Source: Ascidia mentula
Lineage: Eukaryota > Chordata > Ascidiacea > Phlebobranchia > Ascidiidae
NCBI GenBank assembly: GCA_947561715.1
Contig: OX387202.1
Coordinates: 12,723,001 to 12,787,000 of the forward strand
Reading direction: 5' to 3'
DNA: 64,000 nt
The translations under genes were made by a program, and so were the position numbers. Shown in pieces: positions 4,161-39,362 of the stretch. Positions within the stretch are counted from its first letter, which is position 1. Every line of letters begins with the position of its first letter. The notes beneath the pieces are model-generated. The model was not told the origin of the DNA. It worked only from the letters and a program-made list of their open reading frames with translations, and did no database searches.

Positions 4161-16983
<12,823 letters not shown>

Positions 16984-18040: not shown

Positions 18041-18240
18041 ACACGCTTGTAAGTCGTCAGCGCAAAGTTGCCGACAAGTTCGCTTTTTGGTGTAAATAAA
18101 ATACTTTCCCTGAAGACAAGTTTGTGGTTTAAAGGCTGTGGAATTAGTGTTTGCTGTTATACAATAGTGGTTATCTTTATATGGTAGTGGTTAAGGTTAT
18201 ACTGTATAGTGGTTGAGGTTACACCGCAGCATGTTTGACG
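18040..18240 (+). repeat. Dispersed repeat R1, copy 1 (unique part plus short GTGGTT minisatellite)
   Basis: From ACACGCTTGTAAGTCGTCAG through TGGTGTAAATAAAATAC to a tail of GTGGTTA/GAGGTTATA units. The same block recurs at about 23797-23930 with only a few mismatches. In reverse orientation its minisatellite and neighbour recur at 44240-44720. The AATAAA in the body could serve as a poly(A) signal, but the shared copies argue it is part of a repeat. Confidence 0.75.
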
Positions 18241-23510: not shown

Positions 23511-23796
23511 CACAAATAGGCGTGCGATTAATGTACATTAAGGTTGCAGGGACCTGAGGTTTGCAGAAAGAAACACTGCCGTTTATCTGACTCTTAACAC
23601 TATTAAGAACATCTGCCAAAGAAAACCTTTGCGACTTTTAATCCAAACATAAAACGTTAAACAAACATACCTTGATTCAAAACAAACAACATAAAATGCA
23701 GCGTCTAGAGCGTAGTTCTATCGCTTCCCCAGTGTTCTCGCTTCGTCCCCCCGTGGCTTACGGCCATCGATATATATACGGTTATTAAGATTATTA

Positions 23797-23930
23797 CACG
23801 CTTGTAAGTCGTCAGCGCATAGTTGCCGACAAGTTCGCTTTTTGGTGTAAATAAAATACTTTCCCTGGAGACAAGTTTGTGGTTTAAATGCTGCGGAATT
23901 AGTGTTTGCGGTTATACAATAGTGGTTATC
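23797..23930 (+). repeat. Dispersed repeat R1, copy 2, cut by the transposon end
   Basis: Matches 18047-18175 closely, ending in GTGGTTATC, where copy 1 continues TTTATATGG. The sequence switches at 23931 to the transposon terminus TATGGTGGCC. The junction is a boundary of the inverted duplication, not a normal insertion site, because no target duplication matching the other end is present. Confidence 0.75.
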
Positions 23931-24445
23931 TATGGTGGCCTATGAGTGCCACCTAAAAAATCAGCAATGGACATCAAAATAAAATGAGAAATGATTTGCA
24001 AACAAAAATTAATTTGCAAACAAAAATCAAATTGCAAATGAAAAGTAATTTGCCAACGAAAAGTAATTTGCAAATAAAAATCAAATTGCAAATAAAAAGT
24101 AATTTGCCAACGAAAAGTAATTTGCAAACAAAAATCAAATTGCAAATGAAAAGTAATTTGAAAATGAAAATGATTTGCAAATGAAAAGTAATTTGAAAAT
24201 GAAAATGATTTGCAAATGAAAAGTAATTTTGAAATGAAAATGATTTGCAAACGCAATGTGATTTGAATTTTTTTTTCGCTGTCTCGACGTGGCCGAGACG
24301 TGCCAGTGCCAGAAGTGTTTCCCAAAGCAAAACACTCACTTGCACTTTTTCCCTAAAGTCAACAAAATTTAAAATGTATTTAATGTCATATTTATTTGAA
24401 GTTAAAGAAGATTGATAAGTGAAAATATACAATTTAACGTTTAGT
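23931..24445. repeat. Long terminal inverted repeat of transposon L, left
   Basis: After the 23-bp terminus come alternating blocks such as AAAAGTAATTTGCCAACG and AAATGATTTGCAAATG, then a GC-rich palindrome-like block GTCTCGACGTGGCCGAGACG at about 24281-24300. A promoter-proximal part similar to the other end follows (CCCTAAAGTC, then TTATTTGAA, then AAAATATACAATT). The whole unit is repeated inverted at 28260-29022. The repeated ATTTGCAAAT words are plausible transposase-binding sites. Confidence 0.8.
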
Positions 24446-24624
24446 GATAAAGCTTTACGATGTCTGTGACTAAAATAGTTTGAAAACACTATCGCGCGTT
24501 ATGGTCGGTTGCGTCGGGCTTAAACTTTGACCGCTTTGACACAGTTATATTGGAAAATACAAAACATATAGTTATTGGCGATTTACTAATGTTGCGGGTT
24601 ATCTGTCATTAAGGAAAATTGACA

Positions 24625-26073
24625 ATGTCTTCGCAAGATTATGATTGGAAAGACAACGCGGTGTTGGCAAAAACGTTGCAGGATTATGTAAGAAAATCTA
24701 TCAAAAGAGAAGAAATTCTAGATTTTGTGAAACGAGATTTTCCTCGATATGCTTGGAGCTTGCGAACGTTATGTCGCAGACTCAAGCATTTTGACATTTC
24801 TTACACCGATCATTCAGTTGGTGTACATGAAGTAGTGACAGCCGTAAATATGGAAGTAAGTGGCCCAGGAAAGTGTTTGGGATATAGAGCCATGCACCAG
24901 AAGTTGAGGAAACAACATGGAATGAATGTGCCTAGAGATTTAGTGTATGCTGCCATGTCTGAATTAGATCCTGAAGGTCTTCAAACCAGGAATCCATGTA
25001 ACGCAAGAAGAAAAACAAAAAAAGGTTATTTTACAAGCAAATGATCTGATTGGGTGCATTCTCTGGATGGACATTGCAAGTTAATGGGATTTCAAAGAAG
25101 CACTTTTCCTTTAGCTGTGTATGGCTGTATTGACACAGCAAGTCGAAGAATTTTGTGGCTCAGAGTGTGGACTGATAATTGTGACCCTAAGTTAATAGGT
25201 CGTTTTTATTTGGATTATTTGTATGAAACAAGAACTATGTCATCATATATTAGACTTGACAAAGGTACAGAGACTGGTATAATGGCAACAATGCATGCAT
25301 ATCTAAGAAATTTTCATGGTGACATCAGTGATGCAAGTACTACTGTCATTTATGGAAAATCAACTTCCAATCAGGTGAAATTTATCATTGTAATTAGGTT
25401 AAGAGTTTATGAAATGGACATGTGATATATATATTTAATTACAGATTGAGAGATGGTGGAAAGAATTGCATGAGAGACTTGAAAAATATTTCAAAAGTCA
25501 GTTAATGTATTTGAAGGATAGGGGTCATTACAACCCTGAAATGGCTTTGGATAGGTAATGATATTCTTGGTTGTTTTTGTTTGTGACAAAAACAAAATAA
25601 TTGTGTGTGTTGTGTTAACAGAGATGTACTTGCATTTGTGTATATACCTGTCTTAAAAAAGGAAATGGAAATATTTGTGGAAAACTGGAACACACATAGA
25701 ATTCGATACCAAAAAGACACCTATCTCCCTGATGGTGTTCCTGATCACATTTATAACTTTCCAGAAAAATACGGGCTTGAAAAATGTGGTAAGGCAACAA
25801 TCAATGTTTTGGATTTCCTTATATATATATATCCAAATCCACAAGGAACTATCTGCAGGCTTGACTGTAAGTGAACAACAACTAAAAGAAGTTGCTGAGT
25901 TATCAGGAGTACTGGATGTTCCTACAGAATATTTACTTTCCCGCCAGCAGGATTTACTACAAACTTACATACCCAATCCTGAAAAGTTGCATGCGTCAGA
26001 TTGCACAGATGCATACTTATTCTTGAAGGAAAAGATTGTTTCTCATTTAAACAGAGATCCTTTGTGTTTTTAA
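24625..26073 (+). pseudogene. Integrase-fold (DDE) transposase, 4 exons, one in-frame TGA (copy L)
   Basis: Cut-and-paste enzyme of the surrounding element. Exons 24625-25374, 25445-25554, 25622-25788, 25859-26073 sum to 1242 nt (413 codons plus stop). The rve/integrase core shows D148 in HSLDGH, D212 in IRLDKGTETG and E252 in QIERWW, a D-39-E spacing; the loop YGKSTSNQ precedes the Glu. The N-terminal part (aa 1-130) is probably a DNA-binding region. The only visible lesion is TGA at 25042-25044 (codon 140), eight residues before the first catalytic Asp, where the reading frame continues uninterrupted on both sides. The same TGA is in copy R. Either the gene is dead, or the downstream part is made by readthrough or internal initiation. 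A poly(A) signal AATAAA is near 26194. Confidence 0.82.
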
Positions 26074-26958
26074 ACTTTGTACAAGGTTGCATTGAACTAT
26101 AATGAGGTATTTGCTACCAACAGTGTTTTTTTTTAATATGACCATCGGTTGCGACTGATTGCTAAATGCAAACATTATCTTTTGTATTGTCTCAATAAAA
26201 AGCGCCACTGTCACCATCAACTGACTGTGCTAATATAGTATTGTCTAACTCATATTGCCAGTATCAATCATATTCTACCACTATCAGATCATATTGTACC
26301 ACTAACAGACCAATCGGTCGAAGGAATGACATGATTGAATTCGCTGAAATGAGAGAGTGAACATTGAATAATATATTGCATAAGTTGGTCTGAAACATGC
26401 AAGTACAAAATATATTTACATGGGTAATTGGGTATAACATTGAAGTTGGGCTTCTTGGTTGATAATGGAATAGCAAGAAAGGGAACATGCTACAAACTAG
26501 GATAAATAAAGTCTTTAGACAATGAATAATGTACACAATGAGGCAGTGGTTTCATGCAAGGTCACTCACAGGCAAAAAGTAAAGTACTACATTTATAGTT
26601 TTGTTGTACCAACAAATATGCTGTCATGTGAGGTAAAAACACTATATACAAGCTAATACCAAACTAACTAATCATACTTCACAGTTAACAAATTTGTTTT
26701 AGTACCAAAAATACTAATTAGGTTACAAAAAACACTGAAACTGAAGATGGCAGGATTTACTTTACATACAGTGAGTGAGTACAAAGAAGTTCCATGATAA
26801 TTGTAAATGCTACAACAAAAAGTGAAGACAAATCGAAGAATCATTTTACATTTGACAAATTTAGGAGCCTACAAAAATCATTACACTCTTGCTGATCTAT
26901 AAAATTTGAAATTGCTACTTTTGATAAGTTTCTAGTGCAAAACAAACAAGCTCCATTT
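26074..26958. other. Intergenic between the two convergent transposon genes
   Basis: Noncoding AT-rich sequence holding the 3' ends of both genes. The open frame at 26264-26536 (-) has no motif. I looked for a further 3' exon of the kinase gene coding for the usual zinc-binding tail and did not find one. Confidence 0.45.
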
Positions 26959-28126
26959 TCATGTTTGTTCAAGTGATGCAATCTCTGGGTCAGTGTACAC
27001 TAGTGTTCCACCTTGAATGTCAGTCAAAAGAAGCTGCTGACCAGACTGTTGATAGCTGTAATGAGCCAAGCTGCAAGCTTTTTGCCAGACAATTAATTGC
27101 TTGTTGCCACATACAGTACCATCATTTGATGTGTACTTATGAAAGTTTTCAGAAATGTACTCTTCCAAAGTGACAAACTGTTCATCTTTTTCACAAATCT
27201 TACCCAAGAAAATTTTTGTGTATGATGGCACGTATCCAAAAATACAAGTCGGCAAGCCTTTTACTGTTTGAGCAAGTTGTGCTGCAAAATTCGCTGCTAG
27301 CATATGGGACTGCACAATCTTACGAGTGTGTTCTTCAGGAGTTTGATTTGTTTCCTTTATTGCTTCTATAGTGGCAGGCAGATACTTTTTTAAAACCCAA
27401 GTCCCGGGCAAAATGTCACTTGGAGAATGAACTTTAAAAGTTTTTCTGAAGCCACCTTCACTAAAACTATTTTTTTCAACTTGAATATCAACTTCCTTTT
27501 CGGTACTCCACATGAAATTGGAAATATGGAATTCTGAAAGTTTAATTCTAGTGGTGGTTGCTTCCATTGCACAACCTAATTTGATCATATCTAATACTGA
27601 GAGGCTTTTTGGAATGATAGATTCATTTTTCACACATGGTTTAGGGTTATTTGTAGCCCCACTTACTATTTTCCTTCTTTTCATGCTTGGTAACTCTACA
27701 CTGTCATTTGATGACAAGTTTAAAACTTCATCATCATCATTGCAGGACAACTTTGTTTGCTTGCAAATTGCTCTTATGTGTAGAACTCGAAAATTAGGAA
27801 GTTGATTCAACAATATACATGAAGGGCCTTGCTCTCCAGCTAAAATGTCACAAGTCAAACCTTGATCTTCAAAGGAAAAATGTCTGTTACAAGCCTCTTT
27901 AATGTTTTCAATGGTGATTTCGTCGAACAAGTAAGGAACAAATTCCCGAGCTCCAATCTTGGAATATTTTTGGGCTTTTCCCGAAACTTCAGGGCTACAT
28001 CTTTGTACTGTTAAACATTTTCTGTTCCACAATCTGTGCGTAATTACCCTTTGGTGCCTTATTTTCGGGATCCTTCGACCGCCTCTGCTTCATCTCTTCT
28101 TTAAACTTATGCCATGCATTGGCCAT
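26959..28126 (-). CDS. Alpha-kinase-like protein encoded by transposon, copy L (375 aa)
   Basis: Atypical (MHCK/EF2K-type) protein kinase-like domain. The long exon is 26959-28007; a first exon at 28048-28126 starts with ATG (MANAWHKFKEEMKQRRSKD) and joins in frame across a predicted 40-bp GT-AG intron. Family features by residue: FSEGGFRKTFK (about 207-218, nucleotide-binding loop), TWVLKKYL (229-236, the lysine strand), EEYISENFHKYTSNDG (308-323), AHYSYQQSGQQLLLTDIQGG (341-360, with the catalytic D-x-Q-G) and TDPEI (365-369). The protein stops right after, so the C-terminal zinc-binding Cys/His tail of canonical alpha-kinases is missing. A basic KRRK at about 136-139 could be a nuclear signal. 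Activity is uncertain. The gene faces the transposase gene and its promoter would lie in the right long inverted repeat. Confidence 0.8.
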
Positions 28127-28259
28127 TTTTAGACAATTAAGCAGAAGAAAAATACATACGATGATGTAGAAAAATCAAGAAATAACCTTCGCGCGTAACA
28201 CGCACTTCACCATATCGTGTTTCCAAATTATTTTAGATTTAGGTTAAGGTTAAGGCACA

Positions 28260-29022
28260 GTCAGCACAAAAACATTATAAATAAATGTTGAATTGTATAT
28301 TTTAACTTTAATAGCTATCACTGCTCGTTCAAATAAATATCGCATTCAATAAACTTCCAACTTGTTCGACTTTAAGGGAAAAATGGCAAGTGAGGGTTTT
28401 GAATTGGGAAACACTTGGCACTGGCACGTCTCGGCCACGTCGAGACAGCGAAAAAAAAAATTCAAATCACATTGCGTTTTCAAATTACTTTTCATTTGCA
28501 AATCATTTTCATTTAAAAATTACTTTTCATTTGCAAATCATTTTCATTTAAAAATTACTTTTCATTTGCAAATCATTTTCATTTTCAAATTACTTTTCAT
28601 TTGCAAATCATTTTCATTTTCAAATTACTTTTCATTTGCAAATCATTTTCATTTTCAAATTACTTTTCATTTGCAAATCATTTTCATTTTCAAATTACTT
28701 TTCATTTGCAAATCATTTTCATTTAAAAATTACTTTTCATTTGCACATCATTTTCATTTTCAAATTACTTTTCATTTGCAAATCATTTTCATTTTCAAAT
28801 TACTTTTCATTTGCAATTTGATTTTCATTTGCAAATTACTTTTCGTTGGCAAATTACTTTTCATTTGCAATTTGATTTTTGTTTGCAAATTACTTTTCGT
28901 TAGCGAATTACTTTTCATTTGCAATTGGATATTTACAATTTATTTTTCATTTGCAAATCATTTTTCATTTTGTATTTATGTCCATTGTTGTTTTTTGGGG
29001 GTGGCACTCATAGGCCACCATA
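28260..29022. repeat. Long terminal inverted repeat of transposon L, right, with expanded 35-bp units
   Basis: Inverted relative of 23931-24445. About ten head-to-tail 35-bp units (containing TTACTTTTCATTTGCAAATC) lie between 28487 and 28810, against about four in copy R. After the array come ATTTGCAATTTG-type variants, then the terminus ending GGCCACCATA at 29022. Confidence 0.85.
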
Positions 29023-29644
29023 CATGAGCCTCCATAGCCGATATTTTCATAGAGTTAAGAATTATGTAATGGATTTTGATATATGTAATTAGCCTCTTGT
29101 ACCATATTAGTTTTGTGTATTTATAAACGGATCTGTATGTTAAAACCTGAAATTAAAACCTGTTTATCAAATTTTCAAAAACTGATTTTCTGGCACAAAA
29201 ACCAACTTACATTGTAGTAAACCAAAAGTTTGTCTGCGATGCGGCGAGTCTTCATCAGGGCTGTGGCGCTGTGATTCAAAAATGGATTACACAAAACACC
29301 GAAAACACAAGGATAATGAGCGCACACACTTGCACGGACACAAGTTAGGGAAAATTGCACAAAGGCGAAACATTTGCAACAAGTTGTTGTAAAATACAGG
29401 AAAATAAACACATTCTTATTATGCCTGTTTTTTTGCTCTCCTATTTATAGAATTAATTTTTTTTTAGTACGCAATATTCATGATACAATTGCATATTGAA
29501 AAAGGCTTAGGTACGTTGTGCTCGTTGCATTGAACGAAAAGCAATTACCCTATTGTTGTCATGAGCAGTTTTGCACAATTGTTAGTCGTATATTAATACT
29601 AGACTGTCAGATTGTGGAACGGTACAACAGGACGAATTGGAAAG

Positions 29645-31552
29645 ATGAAAATAATTATCAGCACAATATTATTGCTGATTGCGTTGACAGAAAAAATTAA
29701 GTACGTTTTCGCTAATACATTTTCGACTCACCGATTTGTAATGTTTAGTACATAAGGCTGCAAATGTCTAAAATGTAGTATTGCCTTCTTTGTGCAAAAC
29801 GCTTTTGTGTTCCACTGAGCAAAAATATTAAACAGGTTCTTCCACGGTTTGTGAAATTCCTACAAGATATGCGTCCATGTGCTAAAACTGTTACGACTTG
29901 TGCAACCGTTCGATGGACTTTTAACAGCACCACAAGCAACAACGTTCGCGCTTCTATCCAGGATGGGGAAATGGCACCGGGGGATTATTGCAATGTAAGT
30001 TTTTAGTGCAGGTTCTCTTAACTTGTTAACTTTACAGATAAAAAGTTGTACTAAGCTGCATACAGTGCATACTATTTCGACCTGCGAGGCAATAACATGA
30101 ATATCCTCTCAAGAGTTCGCAAACGTTTTACCTGTAGGTTTACGGCGCACCTGACGGAAACTTGCTCGGTCGACTCGAAGGTGACGGTTCAAATGTTGGT
30201 GCACTACTTTCTGATACCGGCATTGTGACGTTTCAATGCAACAATAGTCTCACAGCTGGGTTTTTCAGACTTATAGCATACCCATGTAAGTATGACAAAT
30301 GATTTAGATTACGGTTTGTCAACTTGTTCGTACATTTTTGGGGAAAATCTTCTGGACTTCTTTGCTATAGACAAGTATGGAACTTATGTGTTCGCAGACG
30401 ACCCAGAGGCCTGCGTCACACACGATCCTGTTGCATTCCAGAGTAATATTACCTCTCCTAACTACCCGCTAAATTACGAAAACCACTTATTATGCATTCG
30501 CAAAATATCAACGGGACGGCGACAAACCTTCCAATTTAATGTTATTGACATGGTATTGGAAGATGGTTATGATAACCTATACGTAAGTTCTGCTGATAGG
30601 AAAACCAGCGCAGCTGATACATATCTTGTTGTGTACATGTTTGTTACAGTTTATTTCTGACGAATCAGGTTCCAACTCGATAAAATTGACTGGGGAAGGC
30701 GCCTCTGTTTTTGAGATGACCTGTACTAATATTTCTGTGATGTCTACAACCGACCAGTATACTACAGACACCGGGTTTCGGCTTACTGTTAATACCGGTA
30801 ACGTTTTGGGAGAACAATTGTGGTCTCCATATATGATACAAGCCGTTTTCTTTGGTTTAACATGGCTTTGAGCAGAAATATTTTTACAAATATTCAAGAT
30901 GTTTGACTGTGGCGAAAAAACATATGCATGTACGTATATTGCCAGATACTGAAACAACAGCTGAATGTGCAGAGGAAATGACAATCAAGTAGGCACATAT
31001 TGTTCTATTATTGTTACATATACAGTACGATTGTTTCAGAGAGCCTAATAGTTATCAAACAGTGGGTGTTAATGACTAATAATAAACCAATTCAAGCAAA
31101 CATTTTACACCAGTGCAATCAGACACGTGGAACTTGATGTTTTTAAAAAGGTTAGACTACATGTCGTTGCTGCTTTGCAGTCACCGTTAATACAGTGGTA
31201 ACTTACTGCGGATCATTCTGTATCAAACAATTACAACTAAAGATTATTATTGTCCAATAAGTGCCCTGCTTGCTCCTTATACTTCAAGGTCTAAACTAGA
31301 TCTAGATCGTTCTACAAATGAGTTTTACCCCTAGTGGGTGAAGTACTTCAATAATCTTCAAGCCCGTCATGGATATGCTTCGGTATATGCAATCAATTGT
31401 TATAGCCATGCCAAAAAAGGCTTGGTATGTGTGTAAAATAAAACTTGAGCTTGCGTTTAGAATTGCAAACGCTCAAGACCTTGACTTACGAAAGTGGAGA
31501 TTCTCTCTACATTTCGCCTCAACACAAAAGCAACCTCGATGACATTCTATCA
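29645..31552 (+). pseudogene. Broken 5' copy of the CUB/ZP membrane-protein gene
   Basis: Paralog of the intact gene at 45362-50325, matching its upstream flank and exons 1-7. Counterparts: exon 1 from ATG 29645, exon 2 29836-29994, exon 3 30138-30285, exon 4 30398-30582, exon 5 30650-30797, exon 6 30946-30988, exon 7 31461 to about 31552. Exons 3-6 keep the exact lengths of the intact copy and still spell a CUB domain (SSPNYP-like NYPLNYENHLLC). Three lesions: the exon 1 donor is lost (GTAAGT context became ATTAAGTA), exon 2 is 11 nt shorter with an early in-frame TAA, and exon 7 has an 8-nt deletion. Homology ends inside exon 7; no ZP exons follow. Could be transcribed but cannot make the full protein. 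Confidence 0.85.
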
Positions 31553-33680: not shown

Positions 33681-33704
33681 AGAAAAAATTAAGTACGTTT
33701 TCGC
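33681..33704 (+). other. 24-bp templated insert at the inner junction of the inverted duplication
   Basis: 33681-33704 is identical, in the same orientation, to 29689-29712 (AGAAAAAATTAAGTACGTTT and four more bases). It joins GCAT intron 4 on its left to the inverted arm on its right, whose first bases GCACAAAG complement 29788-29795. The last two bases (GC) are shared with the arm, a 2-bp microhomology. Confidence 0.85.
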
Positions 33705-35160
33705 ACAAAGAAGGCAATACTACATTTTAGACATTTGCAGCCTTATGTACTAAACATTACAAATCGGTGAGTCGAAAATGTATTAGCGAAAACGTACTTA
33801 ATTTTTTCTGTCAACGCAATCAGCAATAATATTGTGCTGATAATTATTTTCATCTTTCCAATTCGTCCTGTTGTACCGTTCCACAATCTGACAGTCTAGT
33901 ATTAATATACGACTAACAATTGTGCAAAACTGCTCATGACAACAATAGGGTAATTGCTTTTCGTTCAATGCAACGAGCACAACGTACCTAAGCCTTTTTC
34001 AATATGCAATTGTATCATGAATATTGCGTACTAAAAAAAAATTAATTCTATAAATAGGAGAGCAAAAAACAGGCATAATAAGAATGTGTTTATTTTCCTG
34101 TATTTTACAACAACTTGTTGCAAATGTTTCGCCTTTGTGCAATTTTCCCTAACTTGTGTCCGTGCAAGTGTGTGCGCTCATTATCCTTGTGTTTTCGGTG
34201 TTTTGTGTAATCCATTTTTGAATCACAGCGCCACAGCCCTGATGAAGACTCGCCGCATCGCAGACAAACTTTTGGTTTACTACAATGTAAGTTGGTTTTT
34301 GTGCCAGAAAATCAGTTTTTGAAAATTTGATAAACAGGTTTTAATTTCAGGTTTTAACATACAGATCCGTTTATAAATACACAAAACTAATATGGTACAA
34401 GAGGCTAATTACATATATCAAAATCCATTACATAATTCTTAACTCTATGAAAATATCGGCTATGGAGGCTCATGTATGGTGGCCTATGAGTGCCACCCCC
34501 AAAAAACAACAATGGACATAAATACAAAATGAAAAATGATTTGCAAATGAAAAATAAATTGTAAATATCCAATTGCAAATGAAAAGTAATTCGCTAACGA
34601 AAAGTAATTTGCAAACAAAAATCAAATTGCAAATGAAAAGTAATTTGCCAACGAAAAGTAATTTGCAAATGAAAATCAAATTGCAAATGAAAAGTAATTT
34701 GAAAATGAAAATGATTTGCAAATGAAAAGTAATTTTTAAATGAAAATGATTTGCAAATGAAAAGTAATTTTTAAATGAAAATGATTTGCAAATGAAAAGT
34801 AATTTGAAAACGCAATGTGATTTGAATTTTTTTTTTCGCTGTCTCGACGTGGCCGAGACGTGCCAGTGCCAAGTGTTTCCCAATTCAAAACCCTCACTTG
34901 CCATTTTTCCCTTAAAGTCGAACAAGTTGGAAGTTTATTGAATGCGATATTTATTTGAACGAGCAGTGATAGCTATTAAAGTTAAAATATACAATTCAAC
35001 ATTTATTTATAATGTTTTTGTGCTGACTGTGCCTTAACCTTAACCTAAATCTAAAATAATTTGGAAACACGATATGGTGAAGTGCGTGTTACGCGCGAAG
35101 GTTATTTCTTGATTTTTCTACATCATCGTATGTATTTTTCTTCTGCTTAATTGTCTAAAA

Positions 35161-36328
35161 ATGGCCAATGCATGGCATAAGTTTAAAGAAGAGATGAAGC
35201 AGAGGCGGTCGAAGGATCCCGAAAATAAGGCACCAAAGGGTAATTACGCACAGATTGTGGAACAGAAAATGTTTAACAGTACAAAGATGTAGCCCTGAAG
35301 TTTCGGGAAAAGCCCAAAAATATTCCAAGATTGGAGCTCGGGAATTTGTTCCTTACTTGTTCGACGAAATCACCATTGAAAACATTAAAGAGGCTTGTAA
35401 CAGACATTTTTCCTTTGAAGATCAAGGTTTGACTTGTGACATTTTAGCTGGAGAGCAAGGCCCTTCATGTATATTGTTGAATCAACTTCCTAATTTTCGA
35501 GTTCTACACATAAGAGCAATTTGCAAGCAAACAAAGTTGTCCTGCAATGATGATGATGAAGTTTTAAACTTGTCATCAAATGACAGTGTAGAGTTACCAA
35601 GCATGAAAAGAAGGAAAATAGTAAGTGGGGCTACAAATAACCCTAAACCATGTGTGAAAAATGAATCTATCATTCCAAAAAGCCTCTCAGTATTAGATAT
35701 GATCAAATTAGGTTGTGCAATGGAAGCAACCACCACTAGAATTAAACTTTCAGAATTCCATATTTCCAATTTCATGTGGAGTACCGAAAAGGAAGTTGAT
35801 ATTCAAGTTGAAAAAAATAGTTTTAGTGAAGGTGGCTTCAGAAAAACTTTTAAAGTTCATTCTCCAAGTGACATTTTGCCCGGGACTTGGGTTTTAAAAA
35901 AGTATCTGCCTGCCACTATAGAAGCAATAAAGGAAACAAATCAAACTCCTGAAGAACACACTCGTAAGATTGTGCAGTCCCATATGCTAGCAGCGAATTT
36001 TGCAGCACAACTTGCTCAAACAGTAAAAGGCTTGCCGACTTGTATTTTTGGATACGTGCCATCATACACAAAAATTTTCTTGGGTAAGATTTGTGAAAAA
36101 GATGAACAGTTTGTCACTTTGGAAGAGTACATTTCTGAAAACTTTCATAAGTACACATCAAATGATGGTACTGTATGTGGCAACAAGCAATTAATTGTCT
36201 GGCAAAAAGCTTGCAGCTTGGCTCATTACAGCTATCAACAGTCTGGTCAGCAGCTTCTTTTGACTGACATTCAAGGTGGAACACTAGTGTACACTGACCC
36301 AGAGATTGCATCACTTGAACAAACATGA
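35161..36328 (+). CDS. Alpha-kinase-like protein encoded by transposon, copy R (375 aa)
   Basis: Exons 35161-35239 and 35280-36328, 1128 nt in frame, mirror of 26959-28126; the main open frame is residue-for-residue identical. The predicted 40-bp intron starts GTAATT and ends TTAACAG. Without splicing, the ATG frame ends at a TAG at 35289-35291, and the long frame alone has no ATG until deep inside, so the splice is the best explanation. Domain content and the missing zinc-binding tail are as in copy L. The 5' region lies in the long inverted repeat. Confidence 0.8.
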
Positions 36329-37213
36329 AAATGGAGCTTGTTTGTTTTGCACTAGAAACTTATCAAAAGTAGCAATTTCAAATTTTATAGATCAGCAAGA
36401 GTGTAATGATTTTTGTAGGCTCCTAAATTTGTCAAATGTAAAATGATTCTTCGATTTGTCTTCACTTTTTGTTGTAGCATTTACAATTATCATGGAACTT
36501 CTTTGTACTCACTCACTGTATGTAAAGTAAATCCTGCCATCTTCAGTTTCAGTGTTTTTTGTAACCTAATTAGTATTTTTGGTACTAAAACAAATTTGTT
36601 AACTGTGAAGTATGATTAGTTAGTTTGGTATTAGCTTGTATATAGTGTTTTTACCTCACATGACAGCATATTTGTTGGTACAACAAAACTATAAATGTAG
36701 TACTTTACTTTTTGCCTGTGAGTGACCTTGCATGAAACCACTGCCTCATTGTGTACATTATTCATTGTCTAAAGACTTTATTTATCCTAGTTTGTAGCAT
36801 GTTCCCTTTCTTGCTATTCCATTATCAACCAAGAAGCCCAACTTCAATGTTATACCCAATTACCCATGTAAATATATTTTGTACTTGCATGTTTCAGACC
36901 AACTTATGCAATATATTATTCAATGTTCACTCTCTCATTTCAGCGAATTCAATCATGTCATTCCTTCGACCGATTGGTCTGTTAGTGGTACAATATGATC
37001 TGATAGTGGTAGAATATGATTGATACTGGCAATATGAGTTAGACAATACTATATTAGCACAGTCAGTTGATGGTGACAGTGGCGCTTTTTATTGAGACAA
37101 TACAAAAGATAATGTTTGCATTTAGCAATCAGTCGCAACCGATGGTCATATTAAAAAAAAACACTGTTGGTAGCAAATACCTCATTATAGTTCAATGCAA
37201 CCTTGTACAAAGT
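36329..37213. other. Intergenic between convergent transposon genes, copy R
   Basis: Mirror of 26074-26958. Contains the inverse of the transposase poly(A) signal near 37088. No gene recognised. Confidence 0.45.
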
Positions 37214-38662
37214 TTAAAAACACAAAGGATCTCTGTTTAAATGAGAAACAATCTTTTCCTTCAAGAATAAGTATGCATCTGTGCAATCTGACGCATGCAA
37301 CTTTTCAGGATTGGGTATATAAGTTTGTAGTAAATCCTGCTGGCGGGAAAGTAAATATTCTGTAGGAACATCCAGTACTCCTGATAACTCAGCAACTTCT
37401 TTTAGTTGTTGTTCACTTACAGTCAAGCCTGCAGATAGTTCCTTGTGGATTTGGATATATATATATAAGGAAATCCAAAACATTGATTGTTGCCTTACCA
37501 CATTTTTCAAGCCCGTATTTTTCTGGAAAGTTATAAATGTGATCAGGAACACCATCAGGGAGATAGGTGTCTTTTTGGTATCGAATTCTATGTGTGTTCC
37601 AGTTTTCCACAAATATTTCCATTTCCTTTTTTAAGACAGGTATATACACAAATGCAAGTACATCTCTGTTAACACAACACACACAATTATTTTGTTTTTG
37701 TCACAAACAAAAACAACCAAGAATATCATTACCTATCCAAAGCCATTTCAGGGTTGTAATGACCCCTATCCTTCAAATACATTAACTGACTTTTGAAATA
37801 TTTTTCAAGTCTCTCATGCAATTCTTTCCACCATCTCTCAATCTGTAATTAAATATATATATCACATGTCCATTTCATAAACTCTTAACCTAATTACAAT
37901 GATAAATTTCACCTGATTGGAAGTTGATTTTCCATAAATGACAGTAGTACTTGCATCACTGATGTCACCATGAAAATTTCTTAGATATGCATGCATTGTT
38001 GCCATTATACCAGTCTCTGTACCTTTGTCAAGTCTAATATATGATGACATAGTTCTTGTTTCATACAAATAATCCAAATAAAAACGACCTATTAACTTAG
38101 GGTCACAATTATCAGTCCACACTCTGAGCCACAAAATTCTTCGACTTGCTGTGTCAATACAGCCATACACAGCTAAAGGAAAAGTGCTTCTTTGAAATCC
38201 CATTAACTTGCAATGTCCATCCAGAGAATGCACCCAATCAGATCATTTGCTTGTAAAATAACCTTTTTTTGTTTTTCTTCTTGCGTTACATGGATTCCTG
38301 GTTTGAAGACCTTCAGGATCTAATTCAGACATGGCAGCATACACTAAATCTCTAGGCACATTCATTCCATGTTGTTTCCTCAACTTCTGGTGCATGGCTC
38401 TATATCCCAAACACTTTCCTGGGCCACTTACTTCCATATTTACGGCTGTCACTACTTCATGTACACCAACTGAATGATCGGTGTAAGAAATGTCAAAATG
38501 CTTGAGTCTGCGACATAACGTTCGCAAGCTCCAAGCATATCGAGGAAAATCTCGTTTCACAAAATCTAGAATTTCTTCTCTTTTGATAGATTTTCTTACA
38601 TAATCCTGCAACGTTTTTGCCAACACCGCGTTGTCTTTCCAATCATAATCTTGCGAAGACAT
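37214..38662 (-). pseudogene. Integrase-fold (DDE) transposase with in-frame TGA, copy R
   Basis: Exons 37913-38662, 37733-37842, 37499-37665 and 37214-37428, mirror images of the copy L exons. The D, D, E catalytic residues are present, and the same TGA at codon 140 lies at 38243-38245. Sharing the stop in both copies means it predates the inverted duplication. Confidence 0.82.
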
Positions 38663-39362
38663 TGTCAATTTTCCTTAATGACAGATAACCCGCAACATTA
38701 GTAAATCGCCAATAACTATATGTTTTGTATTTTCCAATATAACTGTGTCAAAGCGGTCAAAGTTTAAGCCCGACGCAACCGACCATAACGCGCGATAGTG
38801 TTTTCAAACTATTTTAGTCACAGACATCGTGAAGCTTTATCACTAAACGTTAAATTGTATATTTTCACTTATCAATCTTCTTTAACTTCAAATAAATATG
38901 ACATTAAATACATTTTAAATTTTGTTGACTTTAGGGAAAAAGTGCAAGTGAGTGTTTTGCTTTGGGAAACACTTCTGGCACTGGCACGTCTCGGCCACGT
39001 CGAGACAGCGAAAAAAAAATTCAAATCACATTGCGTTTGCAAATCATTTTCATTTCAAAATTACTTTTCATTTGCAAATCATTTTCATTTTCAAATTACT
39101 TTTCATTTGCAAATCATTTTCATTTTCAAATTACTTTTCATTTGCAATTTGATTTTTGTTTGCAAATTACTTTTCGTTGGCAAATTACTTTTTATTTGCA
39201 ATTTGATTTTTATTTGCAAATTACTTTTCGTTGGCAAATTACTTTTCATTTGCAATTTGATTTTTGTTTGCAAATTAATTTTTGTTTGCAAATCATTTCT
39301 CATTTTATTTTGATGTCCATTGCTGATTTTTTAGGTGGCACTCATAGGCCACCATACTCATG

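Follow-up and report, generated by a model that had tools for sequence, protein, structure and literature searches.

A 64,000-nucleotide stretch of the Ascidia mentula genome (contig OX387202.1, positions 12,723,001 to 12,787,000; hereafter the window) holds two copies, L and R, of a DNA transposon that carries a gene for an integrase-type transposase and a gene for an alpha-kinase, a member of a small, atypical kinase family. The copies are 99.3% identical across 4834 aligned bases, and each begins and ends with the same perfect 23-bp inverted repeat, TATGGTGGCCTATGAGTGCCACC. A 19-bp core of these ends occurs 14 times in the 195.8-Mb genome, and the reversed pattern, used as a control, has 0 occurrences there. 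Inward of the repeats lie subterminal arrays of AT-rich units of 17–18 bp, and with these included the two ends of L align over 338 bases at 90.5%; the units of the left array of L are candidate transposase binding sites. Copy R is flanked by an exact 6-bp target duplication, CTCATG. The flanks of L read GTTATC and CATGAG, with no target duplication. An earlier reading of the window from its letters alone (the sequence-only reading) had described the perfect termini, the two convergent genes on opposite strands and the precise duplication around R, and all three were recovered here.

The transposase gene is read as four exons, the GT-AG introns between them being deduced from homology, and its product contains an acidic triad of D, 63 residues, D, 39 residues and E. 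The core scores 30.6 bits against Pfam rva_4 (PF24764, cut-off 26) and has no match above cut-off with Pfam rve (PF00665). The D, D-39-E core of the sequence-only reading thus stands, and its assignment to rve gives way to rva_4. A transposase profile found nothing among solved structures, and relatives of the transposase were confirmed neither in the viral contigs nor in the prokaryote genomes searched. The predicted alpha-kinase signature is borne out by Pfam Alpha_kinase (PF02816), which the window kinase matches with an E-value of 5.3e-24 and 85.8 bits against a cut-off of 21.3. Among solved structures, a profile built from the transposon kinases aligns with residues 61–278 of the TRPM7 kinase chain, which has 280 residues (E 2.5e-24), and it also detects myosin heavy chain kinase A, eEF2K and ALPK1; the alignment takes in most of the catalytic domain. 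Unlike these enzymes, the present kinase is borne on a transposon and has an N-terminal part of its own, about 110 residues long. No relatives of the kinase were confirmed in the viral contigs searched.

To the right of L, the flanking DNA repeats the left flank of R in inverted orientation (902 aligned bases, 99.8%), the similarity ending 779 bp past the element. Judged from these alignments, L and R belong to a single inverted duplication, whose arms measure about 5.9 and 5.7 kb and enclose a 3.9-kb spacer, and the window therefore provides one independent observation, not two. The kinase does lie inside the element in both copies, as had been noted, but the argument drawn from the pair, that the kinase must be cargo, fails because the copies are not independent. 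Two lesions are common to L and R. A premature stop lies in exon 1 of the transposase gene, and a frameshift just ahead of the zinc module of the kinase puts that module out of frame. The stop is absent from all three other copies that align there (L009, L011 and L014), and the frameshift from all six aligned rows (L009, L011, L014, L019, L041 and L043, of which L019 and L043 overlap at one place). The window thus holds relics of an inactivated element that was duplicated in inverted orientation.

One breakpoint of the duplication falls exactly at the end of L, as aberrant transposition might leave it; a second GTTATC, which would be a trace of such an event, was sought at the other breakpoint of L and none was found there. 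A 136-bp repeat (18041–18176 and 23796–23931, 96% identity) also adjoins this point. Its second copy stops exactly at the start of L, and its first copy continues without an insertion.

Two queries, a 132-residue frame located in the 3′ part of the transposase gene and the window kinase frame, obtained 19 and 38 matches in the genome. Besides the family of the window (A), three divergent families, B, C and D, carry the pair of transposase and kinase. Identities among the four families are 47–70% for the transposase and 33–65% for the kinase. PF24764 is above cut-off in all of them, the D, D39E triad is present in A and B, and the kinases of B, C and D score 107.6–112.5 bits against PF02816. 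The two genes are convergent in A, B and C, separated by 767 bp in L (a gap without any frame of 100 residues) and by about 100 bp in copy B1. In B1 and B3 both frames are open (405 and 388 codons); among the complete family-B copies the kinase frame is open in four of four and the transposase frame in two of four. The kinases of B and C align at the lysine region, at D-x-Q-G, at D-P (DPEI) and at an H..H-C-N..C zinc module, motifs whose roles we take to be those they have in other alpha-kinases. The zinc module is complete and in frame in B and C, as opposed to its shifted state in the window copies, and the N-terminal part is conserved across all four families. Given the conservation of these motifs in B and C, the transposon kinase is most likely active.

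Exact 6-bp duplications surround nine of the 11 kinase-type elements of which both ends were read. Seven insertions with exact duplications enclose both genes, and in families A, B and D the kinase is located between the two ends in independent insertions. In family C it lies beside the transposase; the right end was found there, and the left end of copy C1 was looked for without success. The kinase is an integral component of the element and not a passing neighbor, since it is inside both ends in A, B and D, is beside the transposase in C and is constrained in one informative comparison (below). This conclusion of the sequence-only reading is upheld, now on independent insertions. No intact copy was seen that has the same ends and lacks the kinase, and L016, a 1.5-kb internally deleted copy, still retains a piece of the kinase gene. 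Three other sites with the end pattern (L010, L012 and L013) are lone ends. At a further site, L015 (∼4930–4960), one 23-bp end has ACCTAG on both sides, as after an almost complete internal deletion; having only one end, it was left out of the count of 11.

Features of the transposon in the window (window positions) and related elements elsewhere in the genome (contig handle and position)
Feature	Position	Strand	Remarks
Copy L (family A)	23931..29022	+	5092 bp; transposase on +, kinase on -; without target duplication
Terminal inverted repeat, left end of L	23931..23953	+	23 bp, perfect
Subterminal array, left side of L	23982..24251	.	18-bp units
Transposase gene of L	24625..26073	+	exons 24625-25374, 25445-25554, 25622-25788, 25859-26073, inferred
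Alpha-kinase gene of L	26841..28126	-	exon 28126-28048, 40-bp intron (inferred from homology), exon from 28007
Kinase frame end of L	26959		zinc module 26841-26969 in shifted frame
Subterminal array, right side of L	28477..28971	.	35-bp period (17+18 spacing); inverted relative to left array
Terminal inverted repeat, right end of L	29000..29022	-
Left arm of inverted duplication	23931..29801	+	L + 779 bp
Right arm of inverted duplication	33696..39356	-	779 bp + R
Target duplication, left of R	34469..34474	.	CTCATG
Copy R	34475..39356	-	4882 bp; inverted relative to L
Terminal inverted repeat, left end of R	34475..34497	+
Alpha-kinase gene of R	35161..36446	+	mirror of L
Transposase gene of R	37214..38662	-	mirror of L
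Terminal inverted repeat, right end of R	39334..39356	-
Target duplication, right of R	39357..39362	.	CTCATG
Family B	C71:17.37M, C1:1.91M, C69:6.92M, C1:14.93M		plus piece at C69:21.39M
Family C	C71:19.86M		decayed relatives at C1:14.85M, C71:15.42M
Family D	C2:18.88M		L035/L052; 5416 bp, exact duplication CACATG
Exact-duplication insertions enclosing both genes	C71:17.37M, C1:1.91M, C69:6.92M, C1:14.93M, C2:18.88M, C71:4.87M, C1:14.81M
Elements with exact 6-bp duplication			R, B1-B4, D1, L014, L009, L016
Elements without exact duplication			L, L011
HECT-type elements	C70:18.49M, C70:2.82M, C2:19.13M, C72:10.75M, C71:16.99M, C2:19.30M		L064, L065, L068, L069, L075-L078

The association extends over the genome. 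Its 23 Pfam alpha-kinase matches fall in 22 places, 18 of which have a match to a related transposase no more than 5 kb away (15 when fewer transposase matches were used), and 21 of the 22 are matched by the transposon kinase; the remaining place, C69:5.60M, is presumed to be a host gene. Four of the places had first been read as host genes, and a search with the family-B kinase identified three of them as pieces of transposon kinases. In the other direction, the family-B transposase gave 94 matches in 55 places. At 31 of these a match is at least 40% identical, and at 23 of these a kinase match lies no farther than 5 kb away. These counts used all 94 transposase rows, 40 of the 55 family-B kinase rows (the rest being pieces at the same places) and one window-kinase row. 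In a tree of the transposases B and C join, followed by D and then A, and the kinase identities give the same order.

Selection on the two genes was assessed by the ratio of nonsynonymous to synonymous substitution rates (dN/dS), from a Nei-Gojobori count with 95% intervals by bootstrap over codons. Between the window and L014, dN/dS is 0.37 (0.20–0.72) for the kinase and 0.14 (0.06–0.32) for the transposase. L011 yields nearly the same values and, being 99.9% identical to L014, is not independent of it; both have two stops in each gene. The B1 and B3 transposases give 0.38 on seven changes, which is uninformative, and between families the synonymous sites are near saturation (dS at least 1.6; kinase dN 0.28–0.47). 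The kinase thus appears to be under constraint, as supported by the one informative comparison and by the long retention of open kinase frames.

The ends TATGG..CCATA, together with the 6-bp duplications, indicate that the window element is an IS3EU-type cut-and-paste DNA transposon. These ends are present in families A, B and D, and in C at the right end, the only one found. The perfect inverted repeats vary in length, from 23 bp in A to 77 bp in D and 603 bp in B1. Every IS3EU feature that could be tested here is present in the window family, except for the duplication missing in copy L. According to PMC10045372 (2023), IS3EU has been in Repbase since 2013 and is characterized by TA..TA ends and usually 6-bp duplications. 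The present elements resemble these IS3EU/GingerRoot elements in both respects and in their integrase-type transposase; they differ in the kinase, a word absent from the main text of that paper. In fungi, according to PMC12730594 (2025), IS3EU elements have 6-bp duplications, ends TAYGG..CCRTA and terminal inverted repeats over 30 bp, and all TET-bearing ones carry a TET/JBP gene between oppositely oriented transposase and alpha-kinase genes, the dioxygenase being linked to escape from silencing. The sequence-only reading could not say whether its architecture had been described; the combination of transposase and alpha-kinase is already in print, in passing, for these TET-bearing fungal elements. 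The tunicate elements share with them the ends, the 6-bp duplications and, in families A–C, the opposed transposase and alpha-kinase genes. They differ in having no TET/JBP gene between the two, judged by the gaps in L and B1, in their tunicate host and in the single orientation of family D. Among the papers listed in the literature searches, PMC12730594 was the only one to pair an alpha-kinase with DNA transposons, and nothing was found on animal examples or on what the kinase does; Repbase may hold animal entries with a kinase. Searches for HECT with IS3EU found no paper, and those for IS3EU with tunicate only a paper on another transposon family.

The kinase-bearing elements have a sister lineage in the same genome. 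There, a 433-residue transposase, 27%–31% identical to those of A–D, faces a 627-codon HECT-like gene, and no kinase is present. A profile of four HECT-like proteins matches HUWE1 (E 1.8e-8), with HECT ligases making up all 52 of the sequences listed at E of 1 or lower, and a single HECT-like sequence matches E6AP among solved structures (E 4e-4). Pfam gave no HECT match on the 626-residue protein (E up to 0.1), none on its N-terminal 269 residues, a stretch that stops short of the HECT-like part (E up to 10), and no HECT match on pieces of divergent relatives (E up to 1). Element h2 (5119 bp) is bounded by TACGGTGGCCCACAAGTGCCACC, which agrees with the window ends at 19 of 23 bases, and has an exact duplication, GCTGAG. 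In element h1 the left end is damaged and an exact duplication is lacking, so one of the two HECT-type elements examined is exactly duplicated. In a tree of ten transposases, kinase-bearing and HECT-bearing elements split with support of 100/99, one long-branch row being of unsure place. The 44 rva_4 places (46 rows, of which two are additional pieces) were sorted by what lies within 5 kb of them: a transposon alpha-kinase at 12, a HECT-like match at 20 and neither at 13. For the HECT-like matches 26 of the 39 rows were counted, the others belonging to places already represented. One place counts for both, and its coordinates are those of two neighboring elements. Of the 13 with neither, two belong to the kinase clade, L066 and L067 represent a different integrase, and five more are probably that same integrase by score. 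L066 and L067 (C2:2.22M and C71:0.78M) encode a 334-residue rva_4 integrase beside short palindromic repeat arrays, and neither a kinase nor a HECT match lies within 5 kb of them. An N-terminal domain shared by the kinase and the HECT-like protein seemed possible by eye and was rejected, a profile comparison of few sequences having given it a probability of 0.3%.

Taken together, it is highly probable that these are IS3EU-type transposons with an integral, probably active kinase that would serve as an accessory factor in trans, the window copies being relics. The integrase-type DDE transposase would recognize the ends and probably also the subterminal repeats, excise the element and reinsert it with the 6-bp duplication that is observed; the kinase, acting in trans, would let the element propagate better. 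Several observations weigh against this account. For L009 the dN/dS values are 0.33 (0.08–1.35) for the kinase and 0.74 (0.41–1.45) for the transposase, and for C1:15.02M they are 0.88 (0.35–3.3) and 0.51 (0.16–2.4), all intervals including 1; the B1 and B3 kinases differ by one synonymous and four nonsynonymous changes (dN/dS 1.08), too few to judge. Family D alone among the four has its two genes in a single orientation, and the last cysteine of the zinc module is missing from its kinase. The transposases of copies C1 and D1 are partly out of register with the others and look damaged. The N-terminal domain of the kinase has no Pfam match up to an E-value of 10. Finally, eight of the 31 transposase places have no kinase match within 5 kb, all of them partial or broken. 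One of the eight is an N-terminal piece with 98% identity; another, at C52:17296851–17297969, is 99% identical to family B, covers residues 1–373 of 396 and has a stop. Copies without a detectable kinase thus exist, and none was seen with an intact transposase.

What the kinase would act on can be narrowed in part. The role suggested in the sequence-only reading, regulation of the transposase or of chromatin, may hold. Our first choice, a tentative one, is that it phosphorylates a host nuclear or silencing protein. A host target is favored over the transposase because of the TET/JBP addition in fungi and the ubiquitin-ligase-like protein in the sister lineage; as a weak argument, diverse chemistries are more easily reconciled with a host target than with a single invariable partner. 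The next most credible proposal is that the kinase acts only on its own transposase or transpososome, in assembly, nuclear import, stability or timing. The tight pairing of the genes over deep divergence, in matching order of relatedness, speaks for this, if on four families only, and yet the HECT-like enzyme of the sister lineage would then need a different chemistry for the same job. Since some elements encode their own repressors, the kinase might instead limit transposition as a factor of self-restraint. Pairing and constraint are compatible with this, which we nevertheless hold to be unlikely, as selection for restraint on single copies is, by general reasoning, weak.

The two remaining explanations deny the kinase a function in the element. 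Transposons do capture host genes, and a functionless passenger would account for the broken kinase of the window copies and for dN/dS intervals most of which include 1. It would not account for retention in four divergent families, for the ratio against L014, with its interval below 1, or for kinase frames open in every complete family-B copy when half of the transposase frames are not, and we judge it very unlikely. That a host gene lies between transposon ends by accident could be entertained from the window alone, which is one independent insertion; the seven exact-duplication insertions enclosing both genes refute it, and the chance that it holds is practically nil. To return to a host target, a wider proposition, which we regard as doubtful, is that IS3EU-type transposons would depend on a second, protein-modifying enzyme with a host target whose chemistry can be exchanged, an alpha-kinase or, in the sister clade, a HECT-type ligase, each long kept and, in general, oriented toward the transposase from the opposite end.

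We know of no demonstrated job for an alpha-kinase in a mobile element. The presence of the kinase in several transposon lineages of one animal and in fungal relatives makes an accident unlikely, and raises the question of whether phosphorylation is something that a transposon needs for its movement or for evading silencing. A natural comparison for the role of the kinase is offered by the HECT-bearing sister lineage.

Apart from the transposons, the mitochondrial contig (C79, L070) makes sense when translated with the ascidian code, in which AGA/AGG stand for glycine, and this identifies the host as a tunicate. The stretch read around COX1 contains 17 such codons, including one that precedes the likely start, and many of them occupy glycine positions of well-known COX1 motifs.

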